64,000 nt of DNA from Elusimicrobiales bacterium (GTDB taxonomy: Bacteria; Elusimicrobiota; Elusimicrobia; Elusimicrobiales; UBA9959): positions 62,001 to 126,000 of the forward strand of contig JAQTOU010000002.1 in assembly GCA_028713125.1 (NCBI GenBank). The letters run 5' to 3'. Made by a program: the position numbers and the translations under genes. Numbering within the stretch: position 1 is the stretch's first letter; every line of letters starts with the position of its first letter. Shown here piece after piece: positions 1,415-40,469 of this stretch. The notes beneath the pieces were generated by a model that had not been told where the DNA came from, did not search any database, and saw only the letters and a list, made by a program, of their open reading frames with translations.

Positions 1415-2161
1415 ATGGCTGAAAAAATAAAATTGATCAAGGTTTTGAAGAACCAGGTGCTTTATTCCCTGCCTTCCGCGGCGCTGCTCGGCGACGGGTT
1501 CATCGACGGTGTCGGGTGGCCCGCCGATAAAGCCTCCCTCGTCTTCGTCTTCCCCGCTAAAGAAGCAGGAAGCGGCGAACCGGTCAGGGATATGGTCTCG
1601 GGCAGGAAATACGTCTGCCGCCTGACCTATATGGCTGACAAGAAGATGCTCCCCGCCGGCGGGACGCCGGGACTTTCCTGCGGCCTCACCCTGGAGCCTT
1701 TTAAGAATACCGCGGAGCATAAAAAGTGGGCGAGGGCTACCGACCTGAAATATTTTTCCGGGCCCTTCAAAAAATATCTTACCCCGAGCTTCGAGGCCGA
1801 GGCGAAGGAATATTACAAGAACGAGCTGCCGAAGGCTGAAGGCGTCAGCGTGCGCAAAAAAGGCAGGGTGGTTTCCATGCTTACGCTGCTGAAGATAGCC
1901 GGGAAGCCCGGCTCCAGGCCTTTGGACTGGATCTCCTGGGTCTGGGTGGATCCCGGCCTGGCCAAAGCCGAACGGCTGGCCGCCCACGCGCTCCTGCGGG
2001 GCTGGCTGCGCGAAAACAGCCGCGAATGTATCGGCGCCAGCGTTCACGCCGCGAACCTGAGGTCGCAGAAATGGTTCCTCAGGTCCGGGTTCCGGCCCGC
2101 CAGGATCTCCTTCTCGCGCCGGGCTTCCTCTCCCGCGGGGCGCCGCGCGGGCCGCGGGTAG
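1415..2161 (+). CDS. GNAT-like acetyltransferase domain protein
   Basis: A 248-residue soluble protein. The C-terminal third (about 150-235) looks like a GNAT fold: a strand reading WISWVWVDP, a helix of the kind that opens the acetyl-CoA site, and the typical ending SQKWFLRSGFRPAR, where the peptide after the last helix turns into the final strand. The N-terminal ~140 residues are unrecognised. I chose ATG 1415 over an earlier in-frame ATG at 1370 because GAGGA lies about 7 nt before it and the earlier start would overlap the previous gene. The substrate is unknown; the GNAT call is from pattern only. Confidence 0.6.
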   Translation: MAEKIKLIKVLKNQVLYSLPSAALLGDGFIDGVGWPADKASLVFVFPAKEAGSGEPVRDMVSGRKYVCRLTYMADKKMLPAGGTPGLSCGLTLEPFKNTAEHKKWARATDLKYFSGPFKKYLTPSFEAEAKEYYKNELPKAEGVSVRKKGRVVSMLTLLKIAGKPGSRPLDWISWVWVDPGLAKAERLAAHALLRGWLRENSRECIGASVHAANLRSQKWFLRSGFRPARISFSRRASSPAGRRAGRG

Positions 2162-2186
2162 GTCCCGCCCGCCGCCGGAATAATGC

Positions 2187-2215
2187 TTGTAGCGGCCCGG
2201 TGATTTCTGTAAAAT
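2187..2215 (+). promoter_or_regulatory. Sigma70-like promoter abutting the start codon
   Basis: TTGTAG (2187-2192) and TAAAAT (2210-2215) are separated by 17 nt. Transcription would begin about base 2222, which is the ATG of the receiver-metallohydrolase gene, and no Shine-Dalgarno site precedes that ATG. This predicts a leaderless mRNA. Confidence 0.6.
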
Positions 2216-2221
2216 TTGACG

Positions 2222-3553
2222 ATGCCCGAAAATAAGAAGCGTGTGCTTGTCGTGGACGACGATGCCGTGATCAGGGACATGGGCGTGGATATCCTTTCCT
2301 CTGAATACGAGGTCATGGAAGCCGAGGACGGGCAGGACGGCTGGGAAAAAGCGAAGTCCTGGCATCCCGACCTGGTGATCTCCGACCTGATGATGCCGCG
2401 CATGCACGGTTATGAACTGTGCAAGCTGCTGAAGGGGCCCGACGGATTAAGCGGCGTGAAGGTCCTGGTCGCGTCCTCCAAGCCTTTCGCCACGGATAAA
2501 GCGCAGGCTCTTGCCGCCGGGGCGGACGATTACATTGTAAAGCCTTTCCCCATCAACGACCTGCTCGAGAAAGTCAGAAAACTTTTATCCGGCGGTCCGC
2601 TGCCGCCCCGCGCCGCCGTCAATCCCGCCGTTACCAACCGGTCCTCTTCCCTTGCCGCCCCGGCGAAGCCCCAGACCCTTCAGCCGGTCTATGTGCAATT
2701 TTGGGGAACGCGCGGCTCATGCGCTACCAGCGGCGCTAAAACAGTGCGGTACGGCGGGAATACGCCCTGCACCGAGGTCCGCATAGGCGGCGTCCCCCTG
2801 ATATTAGACTGCGGGACCGGCCTGCGCGAACTTGGAGTCAAGCTCTCGCAGGAGTTCTCCGGCCGGCCCATAGAGGGCCATATCTTCGTCGGGCATACGC
2901 ACTGGGACCATATCCAGGGTTTCCCTTTCTTCACGCCCCTGTATAATCCGCTGAACAAGTTCAACGTATATAGTTTGCACGGGGCGAACAGCAGTTTGAG
3001 GAGCATTTTCGGGGAATCTATGGCTTTGGATTATTTTCCTATCCCTCTTTCAAGCCTGGCCTGCAAGCCTAACTTCATAGAGCTGGTAGGCCCCATAGAT
3101 ATAGGCGTCGCCAAGGTCTCCTTCCAGCACCTGAACCATCCCGGGGTCTGCATAGGTTTCCGTATCGAGACGCAGGGAAAGGTCATTACGTATCTGAGCG
3201 ACCACGAAGATTTCGGCAGGCTGGGCGGCGACAGCGAAATGTCGCGCCGCTACGACGCCGCGATCGTGGACTTCGCGCGGGGGAGCGACCTGCTCATAAG
3301 GGATTCACAGTATACCGAGGAAGAGTACGCCACCCGGAAAGGGTGGGGGCACAGCAGCTATGAAGACGTGGCGCGGTTCGCGGTGGCGGCCGGGGTCAAG
3401 CTCCTGGCGCTTTTCCACCACGATCCCTCCCATACGGACGAGATGATGGACGCGAATGTGAAATCCTGCCGGGCCATTATCGCCCAGGCCGGGTCAAAAG
3501 CCGAGTGCTTTGCGGCCTGGGACGGGCAGAGAATAGATATTTTGAAAATCTAA
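2222..3553 (+). CDS. Response-regulator receiver fused to metallo-beta-lactamase-fold hydrolase
   Basis: This 443-residue protein joins two domains. Residues 5-122 are a CheY-like receiver with acidic D12-D14, phospho-acceptor D55 in SDLMMP and K107 in VKPF. A Pro/Ala/Ser linker (about 123-155) leads to a metallo-beta-lactamase fold (156-443) starting FWGTRGS and carrying the metal motif H225-x-H227-x-D229-H230. Later ligand candidates are LNHPG, LSDHED and FHHDPSH. All catalytic positions look intact. In this family such domains hydrolyse phosphodiester or related bonds, so phosphorylation may control a hydrolytic output; the substrate is unknown. A TTG at 2216 is an alternative start two codons upstream. 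No kinase is adjacent. Confidence 0.88.
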   Translation: MPENKKRVLVVDDDAVIRDMGVDILSSEYEVMEAEDGQDGWEKAKSWHPDLVISDLMMPRMHGYELCKLLKGPDGLSGVKVLVASSKPFATDKAQALAAGADDYIVKPFPINDLLEKVRKLLSGGPLPPRAAVNPAVTNRSSSLAAPAKPQTLQPVYVQFWGTRGSCATSGAKTVRYGGNTPCTEVRIGGVPLILDCGTGLRELGVKLSQEFSGRPIEGHIFVGHTHWDHIQGFPFFTPLYNPLNKFNVYSLHGANSSLRSIFGESMALDYFPIPLSSLACKPNFIELVGPIDIGVAKVSFQHLNHPGVCIGFRIETQGKVITYLSDHEDFGRLGGDSEMSRRYDAAIVDFARGSDLLIRDSQYTEEEYATRKGWGHSSYEDVARFAVAAGVKLLALFHHDPSHTDEMMDANVKSCRAIIAQAGSKAECFAAWDGQRIDILKI

Positions 3554-3576
3554 TTAATATAAATATTGATATCTAT

Positions 3577-3954
3577 ATGAATATTAATTTCATCCTATAC
3601 GTAAGGGACCAGGCCAAGAGCAGGGAGTTCTACGCTATAGCCCTGGGCATGGCTCCGCGGCTGGATGTCCCGGGGATGACCGAATTCGAGCTTGCCCCCG
3701 GCAGCGTACTGGGGCTAATGCCTGAAAAAGGCATAAAACGCCTCCTGCCGGATATGCCGGACCCTGAAAAAGGCAGCGGCATCCCGAGGGCCGAAGTATA
3801 CCTGACCGTCCCCGACCCCGCTATTTACCACGCCAGGGCCCTGGCCGCCGGCGCCCGCGAGCTAAGCCCCCTGGCCCCGAGAGGCTGGGGGGATAAAGCC
3901 GCCTATAGCCTCGACCCGGACGGCCACGTGCTGGCTTTCGCGGCCAGAATATAA
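3577..3954 (+). CDS. VOC / glyoxalase-like domain protein
   Basis: A single vicinal-oxygen-chelate domain of 125 residues. It opens MNINFILYVRDQAKSREFY, the usual first strand and helix in which an enzyme and its substrate share a metal, and ends with YSLDPDGHVLAFA, the usual last strand with an acidic residue before the glycine. VOC proteins include isomerases, dioxygenases and resistance proteins; this copy gives no clue to substrate. ATG 3577 is chosen because the frame upstream overlaps the previous gene. The 25 nt before it are very AT-rich and lack a Shine-Dalgarno site. A weak hairpin (about 3973-3994) follows the gene. Confidence 0.82.
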   Translation: MNINFILYVRDQAKSREFYAIALGMAPRLDVPGMTEFELAPGSVLGLMPEKGIKRLLPDMPDPEKGSGIPRAEVYLTVPDPAIYHARALAAGARELSPLAPRGWGDKAAYSLDPDGHVLAFAARI

Positions 3955-4025
3955 TAAACTTTAAACCGGGCCAAGGCTGCGCGGGCTTGGCGGATTTGTC
4001 CCGATCCTGAAAAATAATAAAACCT

Positions 4026-4054
4026 TTGACACTGCGGGGACCTTTTGTTATAAT
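4026..4054 (+). promoter_or_regulatory. Consensus sigma70 promoter of the ribosomal protein operon
   Basis: TTGACA (4026-4031), a 17-nt spacer, then TATAAT (4049-4054). The TG at 4046-4047 adds an extended -10 element. Every position matches the bacterial housekeeping consensus, as expected for a very strong promoter. The start point should be near 4061, about 275 nt before rplC. Confidence 0.92.
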
Positions 4055-4060
4055 AAATCT

Positions 4061-4334
4061 GTAGTTAACTGCGGCAACGCCGCGGTTTCTTTGAAAAAGC
4101 AGTTTTTATTACGCTGTCGCGTTCTTCGGAATACGGGCAGCGGCCCTATAGATGGAGCGGCCTTGATTCCCTCCAGCTGCGGGCTTAATCATAGAAACTT
4201 AAAATATCGTTTTTAAAAAACCGGAGCTAAAAAGTTCCGGCGCGGTTTGTTCGTTTGTTTTTTGCGACCGCGGAAACCCGGCGTCAGAACCGGGCCTTTC
4301 CCGTCGCAGCGGCTAACGCAAGGAGCGGATCGAT
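4061..4334 (+). promoter_or_regulatory. Structured 5' leader of the ribosomal protein operon
   Basis: About 275 nt of untranslated leader between the promoter and rplC. It contains a stem-loop at 4112-4142: CGCTG pairs with CAGCG at the base and a C(UUCG)G tetraloop sits at the top. A 7-bp hairpin lies at 4221-4240 (CCGGAGC with GTTCCGG). It is followed by a U-rich run (4245-4263) bounded by CGCGG and CCGCGG, then a CCCGG/CCGGG hairpin (about 4276-4293). Leaders of such operons are often bound by an encoded ribosomal protein; which one acts here, and whether by attenuation, is unknown. Confidence 0.6.
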
Positions 4335-5126
4335 ATGACAGAAGAAAACAAAGAAAATACAACTCCCGAGGCAAAGCCCGAAGTACAGGTGCTGCCCGTA
4401 GCGCATAAATTTCTCGTCGGCAAGAAGCTGGGCATGACCCAGATCTTCGACGCCGCGGGTAATCTCCACGCCGTCACCGTCGTGCAGACCGGCCCGTGCC
4501 GCGTGGTCTACACCCGCACCAAGGAAAAGGACGGCTACCAGGCCATCTGCCTCGGCTTCGGGGACAAGAAAGAGAGCAGCGCCAACGCCGCTGAAAAAGG
4601 CCTGGCCAAGAAGCTCGATATTAAACCCCTTAAGTACCTGAAGGAATTCCGCGTGACCGACCTCGCGGGCGCCGCCGCAGGCCAGACCGCCAGCGTAGAG
4701 CGCTTCGCCGAAGGCCAGTACGTCGACCTGCAGGGCATCAGCAAGGGTAAAGGTTTCGCGGGCGGCATGAAACGCCACGGCTTCGCCGGCGGCGGAGCTT
4801 CCCACGGCGCCTCCGACAGGGAAAGGGCGCCCGGTTCGCTGGGTTCCCGCCGCTCCCTCGGGCGCGTGCTTCCCGGCCAGCGCATGGCCGGCCACATGGG
4901 CGTGGACACGGTCTCCGTGATGAAGGTCAAGATAATAAAGATCATACCCGAGGAGAACCTGATCCTGGTGAACAACGGTATCCCCGGCGCCACCGGCAGC
5001 ATGGTCCGCATCATGCTCACCAACAAGAAAGTCAATGTCGCCCGCGCGGAGAACCTGAAAGCTAAATCCAAGAAGGACGCCATAAAGGGCACGGCCAAGA
5101 AGCCGGCGCCGGCGGCCAAGAAATAA
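4335..5126 (+). CDS. rplC: Ribosomal protein L3
   Basis: L3 is a primary 23S rRNA binder near the peptidyl transferase centre. The 263-residue product has the signature loop rich in Gly, His and Arg: GKGFAGGMKRHGF, then GASDRERAPGS, then LPGQRMAGHMG. The core starts at about residue 27 (FLVGKKLGMTQIF), after an acidic, Pro-rich N-terminal extension, and it ends in a Lys/Ala/Pro-rich tail of about 25 residues. Both make it longer than the usual ~210. AAGGAG (4319-4324) precedes the ATG. It is the first gene of the operon, where rpsJ (S10) would normally stand; no S10 gene is in the window. Confidence 0.97.
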   Translation: MTEENKENTTPEAKPEVQVLPVAHKFLVGKKLGMTQIFDAAGNLHAVTVVQTGPCRVVYTRTKEKDGYQAICLGFGDKKESSANAAEKGLAKKLDIKPLKYLKEFRVTDLAGAAAGQTASVERFAEGQYVDLQGISKGKGFAGGMKRHGFAGGGASHGASDRERAPGSLGSRRSLGRVLPGQRMAGHMGVDTVSVMKVKIIKIIPEENLILVNNGIPGATGSMVRIMLTNKKVNVARAENLKAKSKKDAIKGTAKKPAPAAKK

Positions 5127-5151
5127 CGGGTAGGCAAAGCAAGGAAAAACT

Positions 5152-5775
5152 ATGGAAACAAAACTTTTAAACCTGCAAGGCAAAGAAGTGGGCAAGTTCG
5201 ACCTGCCGGAGCTTTTCTCCACCAGGCCCGATTCCTGCTTCATCCACGAAGTGATGAAGTATTACCTGGCCAATAAGCACCGCGGTACGGCCTGCACCAA
5301 GACCCGCGCCGAGATCTCCGGCGGCGGCAAGAAGCCGTGGAAGCAGAAAGGCACCGGCCGCGCGCGCGCCGGTTCCACCCGCTCCCCGATCTGGCGCAAA
5401 GGCGGCGTGGTGTTCGGGCCCAAGCCCCGCTCCTTCCGCCAGTACCTGCCCATACAGAAGCTTCAGAAAGCCCTGATCGAGGCCCTCTCCGCCCGCGCCG
5501 CCGACGGCGCCGTGCTGGTGATGGAGAACCTCGCCCTCGAGGCCCCCAAGACCAGCGCTCTCAACGCCCTGCACAAGGGTATCAACGCCAAGAGCATCCT
5601 GTTCATAACGGACAAGATGGACAAGAACTTCAAGATCGCGGCCAGGAACAGGGCCGACTTCGGGTGGTGCCTGGCCAACAACCTGAACGCCTACGAAGCG
5701 ATGCGCAACGAGAAACTCGTTTTCACCACTGCCGGCCTGAAAGTCCTGACCGACAGCGTCAAGGAGGCCAAATGA
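5152..5775 (+). CDS. rplD: Ribosomal protein L4
   Basis: L4 lines the exit tunnel of the large subunit and in some bacteria also represses its own operon. The 207-residue length is normal. The tunnel loop is clear: RGTACTKTRAEISGGGKKPW followed by QKGTGRARAGSTRSPIW (about residues 43-82), with the C-terminal Rossmann-like part after it. It lies 25 nt after rplC, and its stop codon overlaps the start of rplW by 4 nt (ATGA), so the two are probably translationally coupled. An autoregulatory role here is only a possibility suggested by the long operon leader. Confidence 0.97.
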   Translation: METKLLNLQGKEVGKFDLPELFSTRPDSCFIHEVMKYYLANKHRGTACTKTRAEISGGGKKPWKQKGTGRARAGSTRSPIWRKGGVVFGPKPRSFRQYLPIQKLQKALIEALSARAADGAVLVMENLALEAPKTSALNALHKGINAKSILFITDKMDKNFKIAARNRADFGWCLANNLNAYEAMRNEKLVFTTAGLKVLTDSVKEAK

Positions 5776-38110: not shown

Positions 38111-38926
38111 ATGTACCTGCAGTACGCTAAGAACCTTGCCGATATCGCGGTGGTATACTATATCGTATACCGCCTGATATTGCTGCTTAAGGGCACGCGC
38201 GCCATGCAGGTTATCTGGGGCGTTTTTATCCTGGCCGTCATCACCGCCGTGGCCAAATACCTGAACCTTTCCGCTACCGTCTGGCTGATGCAGCAGTTCT
38301 GGCTGGCCGGCATGTTCCTCCTTATAGTGGTCTTCCAGCCCGAGATCCGGTTCGCGCTCGCCAATATCGGCTCGAATCCGCTGGGCCGGGTGATGGTGTC
38401 CCAGGAGTACCGCTTCATAGGCGAAATGATGGAGGCCGTCCGCGCCGCCGCCGCGGAGAAAATGGGGATGCTGATAGTGCTGGAGCAGGACATGGCGCTG
38501 CGCGACATCGTAGAGACGGGGGTGCGCATAAACGGCGAGGTCTCCAAGGAGATGCTGCTGACGGTTTTCCACATAAACACCCTGCTTCACGACGGCGCGG
38601 CCGTCATAGCCAATAACAGGCTGGTCGCGGCCGGCTGCATTCTGCCGCTGACGGAGCAGCAGGAGCTTTCAAAGATACTAGGCATGAGGCACCGCGCCGC
38701 GCTGGGCCTCAGCGAAGTGGCTGACGCGATCATAATCATAGTTTCCGAGGAGACCGGGACGCTGTCGGTGGCCCGCAACGGGAAGCTCCAGCAGGCCGTC
38801 GATCCGAAGGACCTCGAGGCCATGCTGTACCAGCTCTACCGCTCGAAAGCCGAGAAGACCCTGCTCAGGAAAGCCCCGCGCCCTGAGGCCCAGGCCGCCC
38901 CTCACGCGGCGCCGCCGCAGGCCTAA
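38111..38926 (+). CDS. cdaA: Diadenylate cyclase, CdaA type
   Basis: Makes cyclic di-AMP from two ATP. The 271-residue protein has an N-terminal membrane region (about residues 8-75) and a DAC domain with D161-G-A and R193-H-R195, both key catalytic motifs. The Pro/Ala-rich C-terminus is extra. Cyclic di-AMP controls osmolyte and potassium balance in other phyla. Only a 32-residue fragment follows it where cdaR would normally stand. Confidence 0.95.
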   Translation: MYLQYAKNLADIAVVYYIVYRLILLLKGTRAMQVIWGVFILAVITAVAKYLNLSATVWLMQQFWLAGMFLLIVVFQPEIRFALANIGSNPLGRVMVSQEYRFIGEMMEAVRAAAAEKMGMLIVLEQDMALRDIVETGVRINGEVSKEMLLTVFHINTLLHDGAAVIANNRLVAAGCILPLTEQQELSKILGMRHRAALGLSEVADAIIIIVSEETGTLSVARNGKLQQAVDPKDLEAMLYQLYRSKAEKTLLRKAPRPEAQAAPHAAPPQA

Positions 38927-39043: not shown

Positions 39044-39787
39044 ATGGCCTCTGTCTCCGTTTACGCTCACAGGGGGGGTATGCTTAAGGCCCCCGAAAAT
39101 ACCGTGGCCGCCTTCAAGGCGGCTTTTTCAGCCGGGGCCGACGCCGTGGAATGCGACATCCGCCGCACCGCCGACGGGCAGTTCGTGGCCTTCCATGACT
39201 CCGGGACCGGCAGGGTCTGCGGCCGGGACTGGAAGATCGCGGCCACCTCGTGGCCGCATTTGAAAAGCCTGCGCGTGCTCGGGAAGGAGCCCATCCCGCA
39301 CCTGGACGATATCCTTAACCTTATGATACTGCATCCCGGCAGGGAATTCTATTTCGAGATGGCGCTTGAAAAAGAGGCCGACGCCGCGGACCTGGCCCTG
39401 CAGATAAAAAGGGCGGGCGTACAGAGCCGCGCCTTCCTGCTTACCTACTCCTGCCGGAGCGGTTTCCTTGCGGCCGCGCGCGCGGCCGTGCCGGGCGTGG
39501 GACTGGCGGTCATGCCGCTTTTCCCCTCGGACATGCTTACCACGGCCGTGAAGACCGGCGCCTCGAAGGTCTGCGCCGGCTGGATCGACTGGCCGCTGAC
39601 GAAACAGCTTTTTTACGCAGGCGCTTCGGCGTTCGATTTTAAAAAGCAGGCGGAAGAGGCGGCCCTGGCCGGAGTGGAGATCTCCGCCGGCATAGCCAAC
39701 CACCCGCGCGACGTGCGCCGCCTTCTTGATCTGGGCGCCAAAGCCGTGTGGACCGACGACGTGGAGATGGCGGTGAAATATGTATAA
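39044..39787 (+). CDS. Glycerophosphodiester phosphodiesterase
   Basis: Hydrolyses glycerophosphodiesters to glycerol 3-phosphate and an alcohol. The 247-residue protein has the family's SVYAHRGGMLKAPENTVAAF (catalytic His, Arg, Glu region), AVECDIRRTADGQFVAFHD (metal and second His) and NLMILHPGREFYFEM. It lacks a signal peptide, so the cytoplasm is its place. The ATGs and 8-nt overlap with the response regulator suggest co-transcription. Confidence 0.92.
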   Translation: MASVSVYAHRGGMLKAPENTVAAFKAAFSAGADAVECDIRRTADGQFVAFHDSGTGRVCGRDWKIAATSWPHLKSLRVLGKEPIPHLDDILNLMILHPGREFYFEMALEKEADAADLALQIKRAGVQSRAFLLTYSCRSGFLAAARAAVPGVGLAVMPLFPSDMLTTAVKTGASKVCAGWIDWPLTKQLFYAGASAFDFKKQAEEAALAGVEISAGIANHPRDVRRLLDLGAKAVWTDDVEMAVKYV

Positions 39788-40469
39788 AAGAATACTGCTG
39801 GTCGACGACGATAAGCTGGTGCTGAACTCCACCCGGCGCTACCTCGAGGACCGCGGCTTCACTGTCGCCGCCGCGGACAACGGGGCCGAGGCGGTGGCAC
39901 TGGCGCGCGAGTCGAAGCCGGACCTGGTCATAACCGACGCGCAGATGAAGGGTCTGGACGGCTTCGCGCTCTGCAAGGCCTTGAAGGAGACCGAAGGCTT
40001 TACCGGGGTTCCGGTCATAATAATTTCAGGCAGCAAGATCAGCGAGGAAGATATCCTGGCCGGCTATAACAAGGGCGCCGACGATTATATCCTTAAACCT
40101 TTTTCTTTCCCGGTCCTGCTGGCCAAGGTGAAGGCGGTCATGAAGCGCTACGAGGGCGTGGCGGAGAAAACGGAGAAGATAAAGAAGCTTGGCATGGTGA
40201 TCGACCCTTCGGGGCGGACCGTGACGATCAAGAGCTCCGTGATAAATCTTACCCGCAAAGAGTTCGATCTGCTGATGGCGCTGATAACCGAAGAGGGCCG
40301 GCTGCTGGGCATCCCGCACCTCCTGGAGACGGTCTGGGGCTACGACCCGGCCAGCTACAATGACCCGCATACGGTCGGGGTGCATATTTCATCCCTCCGC
40401 AAAAAGCTCGGCCATGAAATAGGTGAGCACATCACCAGCGTCACCGGCCACGGTTACAAATTCGAATAA
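39780..40469 (+). CDS. OmpR/PhoB-family response regulator
   Basis: A DNA-binding two-component regulator. Residues 1-118 are the receiver, with D9-D11, phospho-acceptor D53 and K in YILKPF. Residues 130-229 are the winged-helix output: LTRKEFDLLMALITEEGRLL, then VWGYDPASYNDPHTVGVHIS and HITSVTGHGYKFE. The cognate kinase is not adjacent on this strand; the only kinase in the area is 42074-43624 on the other strand. It overlaps the preceding gene by 8 nt. Confidence 0.93.
   Translation: MYKRILLVDDDKLVLNSTRRYLEDRGFTVAAADNGAEAVALARESKPDLVITDAQMKGLDGFALCKALKETEGFTGVPVIIISGSKISEEDILAGYNKGADDYILKPFSFPVLLAKVKAVMKRYEGVAEKTEKIKKLGMVIDPSGRTVTIKSSVINLTRKEFDLLMALITEEGRLLGIPHLLETVWGYDPASYNDPHTVGVHISSLRKKLGHEIGEHITSVTGHGYKFE

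Follow-up and report, generated by a model that had tools for sequence, protein, structure and literature searches.

A receiver domain fused to a metallo-β-lactamase hydrolase in an Elusimicrobiales bacterium: a candidate two-component-controlled cyclic-mononucleotide phosphodiesterase

The window, i.e., the whole 64-kb stretch of DNA that was analyzed, contains a gene for a two-domain protein in which a receiver (REC) domain precedes a metallo-β-lactamase (MBL) hydrolase domain. Its features are:

2222–3553, + strand: REC–MBL gene coding for 443 aa, with the ATG at 2222 and the stop codon at 3551–3553 (translation, Pfam, orthologs)
2243–2578, + strand: receiver domain, residues 8–119 (Pfam, conservation, AlphaFold2 model)
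2606–2671, + strand: low-confidence linker, residues 129–150 (pLDDT <50 in the AlphaFold2 model)
2684–3550, + strand: MBL hydrolase domain, residues ~155–443 (Pfam, AlphaFold2 model, structure and profile matches)
2894–2911, + strand: metal motif HTHWDH, residues 225–230 (invariant in a 36-sequence alignment; its four ligands invariant in 39 REC–MBL proteins)
3137–3139, + strand: metal ligand H306 (conservation in both alignments)
3200–3202, + strand: metal ligand D327 (conservation in both alignments)
3416–3418, + strand: metal ligand H399, the first His of FHHD (conservation in both alignments)

The translation, the Pfam matches and the AlphaFold2 model bear out the preliminary description of 2222–3553 as a receiver fused to an MBL hydrolase, coordinates included; the frame is also opened by a TTG two codons upstream of the ATG. 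The Response_reg match spans residues 8–119 (E 1.1e-24, above the curated cut-off), and the domain qualifies as a receiver by its CheY fold with the acid pair D12/D13, the phospho-acceptor D55, S85 in the T/S position, and K107. In a VIA comparison, it aligns with the VicR receiver with a Z of 21.6. The Lactamase_B_2 match (PF12706) covers residues 194–400 (E 5.8e-12, 46.1 bits against a cut-off of 27), and this score, together with the full HxHxDH...H...D...H ligand set (H225, H227, D229, H230, H306, D327, and H399), places the C-terminal domain among the PF12706 metallohydrolases. The AlphaFold2 model obtained with the 36-sequence alignment (mean pLDDT 89.8, pTM 0.77) shows two confident domains and a floppy linker (129–150). 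A promoter scan over 2100–3700 found no sigma-70-like promoter, and the two terminator-like sites over the same range both lie within the REC–MBL gene, near chance level. The neighboring glyoxalase-like and ribosomal genes are kept in four close relatives (flanks of ~1.5 kb) and are uninformative on function. Elsewhere, the window codes for the diadenylate cyclase CdaA (38111–38926, + strand; DAC domain, E 2.7e-39) and an OmpR-type response regulator with receiver and Trans_reg_C domains (39780–40469, + strand).

We then examined the conservation of the active sites across 39 distinct REC–MBL proteins, a set that includes one truncated member (L112). D55 and K107 of the receiver and six metal ligands of the MBL domain (H225, H227, D229, H230, H306, and D327) are each present in 39/39, in agreement with the earlier observation on the window protein that all phosphorylation and metal residues are kept. 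H399 is found in 38/39, with one gap. The other receiver positions admit substitutions: D12 is D in 35 and E in 4, D13 is D in 37 and N or G in one each, and S85 is S in 35 and T in 4. Likewise, the six inner metal ligands show no variation in the 36-sequence alignment (A1), where H399 reaches at least 90% conservation; of the FHHD His pair, the paralog L003 retains the H399-equivalent His alone.

The same fusion is seen in orthologs at 62% (L009), 49% (L010), and 48% (L011) identity, and a close ortholog (E 1e-120 or better) was recovered in 15 of the 22 same-genus genomes, draft genomes among them. This retention of the fusion excludes its having arisen by chance. Close relatives of the MBL domain number three in the source genome, namely the window gene itself, a gene for an MBL domain alone (C29:7284), and another REC–MBL gene (C11:423367, L003), and the MBL family as a whole is found in 109 of the 294 Elusimicrobiota genomes at E 1e-15 or better. 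Beyond the Elusimicrobiota, MBL domains carry N-terminal receivers in MAGs of Verrucomicrobiota, Bacteroidota, and Lindowbacteria. Receiver-like domains at the C-terminus are found in MAGs of Rokubacteria, Chloroflexi, Burkholderiales, and Desulfosarcina, that of L021 being detected by the local model alone. We placed the window protein on an MBL tree with 108 rows, several of them identical owing to overlapping loci, which left out the window duplicates L001 and L089 and MBL stretches of less than ~220 or more than 420 residues. It falls in a starred clade whose 40 rows include 38 with a receiver fused at the N-terminus. On this tree, the N-receiver label requires six changes, at least three of them forced by starred branches. 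L018, L021, and L028 have C-terminal receivers that, judged by eye, appear degenerate, and phosphorylation control is therefore not common to every member of the family. A phage origin of the MBL domain was rejected, as our phage collection gave no match at E 1e-5.

Structure and profile searches place the MBL domain near both ribonucleases and phosphodiesterases. The first Foldseek match of its predicted structure is Bacillus subtilis YhfI (E 6.1e-14). With VIA, ZipD (Z 27.6, rmsd 2.7, 245 aligned), RNase Z (Z 27.3, rmsd 2.7, 244 aligned), and YhfI (Z 27.1, rmsd 2.4, 235 aligned) are tied, with Z differences of <1 counted as ties; an arylsulfatase and PNGM-1 (Z ~24–25) rank below RNase Z and YhfI, and the yeast cyclic-nucleotide PDE1 is also matched (Z 22.2, rmsd 3.3, 262 aligned). 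A profile of 36 MBL domains found RNase Z as its best PDB match (E 2.9e-20), along with YhfI (E 3.3e-11) and, weakly, phage Apyc1 (7u2s_A, E 0.066). Among the NCBIfam models, RNase_Z (TIGR02651) is the best match, with 60 bits against a cut-off of 292.95, and the score to the cyclic nucleotide-degrading phosphodiesterases of NF041851 is 35.3 bits against a cut-off of 400. Since it falls below the cut-offs of both, we treat the domain as a subfamily of its own. The classical class-II phosphodiesterase (PDE) domain PF02112 was not matched by the window protein in a Pfam scan at E 0.01. As the preliminary description had it, the wider family does contain phosphodiesterase-like enzymes: PF12706 holds the "atypical class-II" PDEs Rv1339 and Corynebacterium glutamicum CpdA, reported as cAMP phosphodiesterases (PMC9293780), and YhfI is a reported cAMP/cGMP phosphodiesterase favoring these nucleotides over cCMP/cUMP (PMC9117128). 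All three share their Pfam domain and the HxHxDH metal site with the window protein (PMC9293780, PMC9117128), but YhfI is ~20% identical to its MBL domain in the structural alignment, and the window protein differs further in carrying a receiver.

We next consider potential two-component partners. Kinase frames, detected with profiles seeded on known kinases and confirmed with Pfam, are present in L012, L014, L020, L052, L125, L129, and L173, and in only one (L012) of the nine N-terminally fused REC–MBL loci. In an Elusimicrobiota genome (G223; L129, 3175–7271, − strand), genes for a receiver (7271–6906), an MBL protein (6909–6046), a Crp-type regulator (5987–5331), and a kinase (5334–3175) follow one another, with 4-nt overlaps at the receiver/MBL and Crp-type/kinase junctions. 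The Crp-type protein matches HTH_Crp_2 above the cut-off (48 bits) and cNMP_binding below it (24.2 bits against 27.5); the kinase has PAS/GAF domains, with HATPase_c above and HisKA just below the cut-off. The four-gene cluster looks like a complete sensing-to-cyclic-nucleotide cassette. A betaproteobacterium (L014, 3083–6269, + strand) similarly codes for a HAMP–HisKA–HATPase kinase (3083–4591), a 135-aa protein (4588–4995), a receiver (4995–5384), and an MBL protein (from 5385), with gene ends touching or overlapping. In a Verrucomicrobiales MAG (L012, 3367–6305, + strand), two genes precede the fused REC–MBL gene, one of them small GTPase-like (as judged by eye) and the other coding for an HATPase_c protein (28.3 bits against a cut-off of 26.4; no HisKA match), with the end of the HATPase_c gene overlapping the start of the fusion gene; no copy of this kinase turned up beside L013, L016, L020, or L025. 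At a further locus (L131), three receivers precede the MBL gene, which is followed by genes that resemble succinate dehydrogenase ones by eye. In the source genome, a histidine kinase gene (L173, 3330–4634) lies 2.7 kb from the second REC–MBL gene, and no histidine kinase gene lies beside the window gene. Thus, the proposed two-component control gains indirect support from the clustering of unfused receiver/MBL pairs (L014, L129) and one fused relative (L012) with kinase-like genes: the co-occurring kinases expected at the outset are found with these relatives but not next to the window gene.

The MBL relatives also show a contextual linkage to cyclic-nucleotide signaling. A separate cyclase or cNMP-binding frame was found at 8 of the 46 MBL-family loci (three of the eight from one Gemmatimonadota clade) and at none of the 34 receiver-only loci of the same scan, which represent two-component rather than random neighborhoods (one-sided p 0.009; the cyclase and cNMP-binding models were iterated over the same loci as counted, with Pfam confirming 10/10 flanking frames). 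Taken separately, cyclases and cNMP-binding frames each occur in 5/46 against 0/34 (p 0.057 each). Contexts seen in the MBL family include a Crp-type regulator upstream of the MBL gene at three Gemmatimonadota loci, with 39–72 nt between the open frames (L029, L032, L036), and an overlap between a Guanylate_cyc frame and the MBL frame in a gammaproteobacterial Porticoccaceae MAG (L051). In Elusimicrobiota, a HAMP–Guanylate_cyc gene adjoins the MBL gene in two genomes (L119, L120). At locus L130, a cNMP_binding gene lies ~0.8 kb from the MBL gene. Four loci of the Elusimicrobiota family f3 (L119–L122) have the MBL gene near genes recognized by eye as GAPDH-like and/or RdgB-like, the adjacent cyclase being present only in L119 and L120. 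In Rokubacteria, an MBL domain, a receiver-like domain, cNMP_binding, and GGDEF are fused in this order (L018, L019), and cNMP and c-di-GMP signaling may meet in these proteins.

Plasmids furnish further examples: 12 of 14 plasmid stretches, picked for species variety from searches matching 243 and 246 records, mostly Rhizobiales and for the most part from one rhizobial clade, have a cyclase and/or a cNMP-binding gene (all but L144 and L148). The cyclase CDS overlaps the MBL CDS in Ensifer (L138), a cNMP-binding gene lies 6 nt upstream of the MBL gene in Mesorhizobium (L140), and the order cNMP-binding, MBL, cyclase is seen as consecutive genes in Rhizobium sp. ACO-34A (L143, 3395–6600) and, with the MBL gene in two frames, in R. 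daejeonense (L150). The L143 run suggests a redox-sensed cNMP module, because its cyclase carries an additional 2Fe–2S (Fer2) domain; the MBL gene of L150, divided between its two frames at 4001–4698, is possibly a pseudogene.

At the level of whole genomes, 105 of the 109 Elusimicrobiota genomes with the MBL family code for a class III cyclase as against 32 of the 185 without it, a co-occurrence confounded and inflated by shared ancestry and genome size. The source genome has six class III cyclases and nine cNMP-binding matches, and lacks a PF02112 PDE as well as EAL domains. Cyclase and cNMP-binding genes are absent from the 2-kb flanks of all nine N-terminally fused REC–MBL loci (these flanks being short in L015–L017), from the whole window, and, as frames, from the 15–19 kb around the other two MBL copies of the source genome; a cNMP-binding match lies ~17 kb from the MBL-only copy. 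Hence, the link to cyclic nucleotides comes from the unfused or C-terminally fused relatives. Four Elusimicrobiota contigs (L124–L127) have a fused REC–MBL gene and a cyclase ~4–11 kb apart; having been picked for possessing both, they were left out of the counts.

Taking together the domain order, the phosphorylation and metal sites, their conservation, and the clustering of relatives with kinase and Crp-type genes, all of which are directly observable in the sequences, we interpret the window protein as a single-protein response regulator, whose output would be a two-metal cyclic-mononucleotide phosphodiesterase of the RNase Z/YhfI branch (probability of roughly 0.55). The MBL domain is presumably an active hydrolase; its control by phosphorylation is quite likely, and a cyclic mononucleotide is its favored substrate, with somewhat less assurance. 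The earlier suggestion of a nucleotide second messenger is supported by the cyclase/cNMP-binding linkage and the PDEs of PF12706 (PMC9293780), and can be narrowed to cyclic mononucleotides, there being no enrichment of GGDEF. Because relatives of the enzyme often adjoin cyclic AMP-type messenger genes, an outside signal probably controls the destruction of such a messenger through the window protein. In this process, a histidine kinase would phosphorylate D55, altering the dimerization or docking of the receiver, and the flexible linker would relay this change to switch the MBL domain on or off. Its two-metal center would attack the cyclic phosphodiester, hydrolyzing a 3',5'-cyclic mononucleotide (of the cAMP or cGMP type) to the 5'-monophosphate and thus lowering the signal made by the class III cyclases of the cell. 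Receiver dimerization is a common switch. As YhfI and Apyc1 are, moreover, described as homodimers (PMC9117128, PMC9293780), dimer-based control is plausible for the REC–MBL proteins by analogy.

The kinship with RNase Z raises the alternative of a receiver-controlled ribonuclease, with the MBL domain acting on RNA in the manner of RNase Z or RNase J and a two-component signal altering RNA turnover. RNase Z and ZipD share a GHS motif with the window protein in the alignments, in addition to the top structural Z (ZipD, tied with YhfI within 1) and the best PDB-profile and NCBIfam matches. The source genome has no RNase_Z match above the family cut-off (the best is a 265-aa frame, C11:483326–484063), which would allow for one of its MBL proteins acting on RNA. 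However, the domain scores only 60 of the 293 bits, and the presence of a close ortholog in just 15/22 same-genus genomes makes it hardly a housekeeping protein; a housekeeping RNase Z was set aside on this patchy presence and the score. The relatives also adjoin cyclases and cNMP-binding genes in a neighbor survey that covered cyclase, cNMP-binding, GGDEF, and kinase genes, and we consider the ribonuclease improbable. A comparably low likelihood attaches to another phosphodiester messenger as the substrate, be it c-di-GMP or its linear product, c-di-AMP, or 2',3'-cyclic nucleotides. GGDEF frames near 5/46 MBL loci (L026, L034, L042, L052, L053) would fit it, but are no commoner than near the control receivers (6/34, p 0.88). 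While GGDEF is fused in L018 and L019, these proteins carry a cNMP-binding domain too; and while the source genome has eight GGDEF domains, its six HD_5 domains could serve c-di-GMP. The CdaA gene in the window, by which the organism probably also makes c-di-AMP, would likewise fit a substrate of this kind.

Very improbable, in our estimate, is the hydrolysis of a non-phosphodiester (sulfate ester, lactone, beta-lactam-like, or metabolic ester), with the cyclase linkage reflecting general regulation: the arylsulfatase and PNGM-1 that would favor it rank under RNase Z and YhfI among the fold matches, and the linkage to cNMP genes recurs across several phyla. Compatible with any of these substrates is a receiver that serves as a mere docking or localization module, its phosphorylation having no effect on catalysis. 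The low-confidence linker, the lack of a kinase gene beside the window gene, and the degenerate C-terminal receivers of L018, L021, and L028 could be so understood, but the phospho-Asp and Lys are invariant in 39/39 N-terminal fusions and kinase genes cluster with L012, L014, and L129, which renders it unlikely.

The preferred reading of a phosphorylation-gated cyclic-mononucleotide phosphodiesterase has precedents for its separate elements. Dictyostelium RegA follows the same logic, in that its receiver gates a cAMP PDE (PMC11988041), but its catalytic domain is of class I rather than MBL. Conversely, Dictyostelium GbpA and GbpB, which we liken to the window protein by their description, combine an MBL catalytic domain with cNMP-binding domains (PMC11988041), and it is cNMP binding rather than a receiver that controls them. 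Phage Apyc1 is an MBL cNMP phosphodiesterase too (PMC9117128), weakly matched by the profile of the window MBL family; unlike the window domain, with its lack of phage matches, it is a viral anti-Pycsar protein. RNase Z and ZipD differ in that the context of the window protein's family is cyclic-nucleotide signaling. Thus, the published accounts include receiver-gated PDEs from Dictyostelium and MBL PDEs from both Dictyostelium and bacteria (PMC11988041, PMC9293780, PMC9117128). Full-text searches of an open-access collection, judged by titles and abstract openings, yielded no account of a bacterial receiver–MBL phosphodiesterase. We tentatively propose, with the odds slightly against so broad a claim, a bacterial response-regulator family that would gate cyclic-mononucleotide destruction directly by two-component phosphorylation, a counterpart of RegA with an unrelated catalytic fold. 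It would exist in fused form, as in the window, and as split cassettes that include a histidine kinase along with a Crp-type receptor (L129), and would belong to an uncharacterized MBL phosphodiesterase subfamily forming receptor–phosphodiesterase–cyclase modules in several phyla. If true, this would constitute a direct wire in bacteria from two-component sensing to cAMP/cGMP breakdown, and would give a widespread MBL subfamily a testable function. In the annotated plasmid entries, the MBL relatives are mostly labeled "MBL fold metallo-hydrolase".
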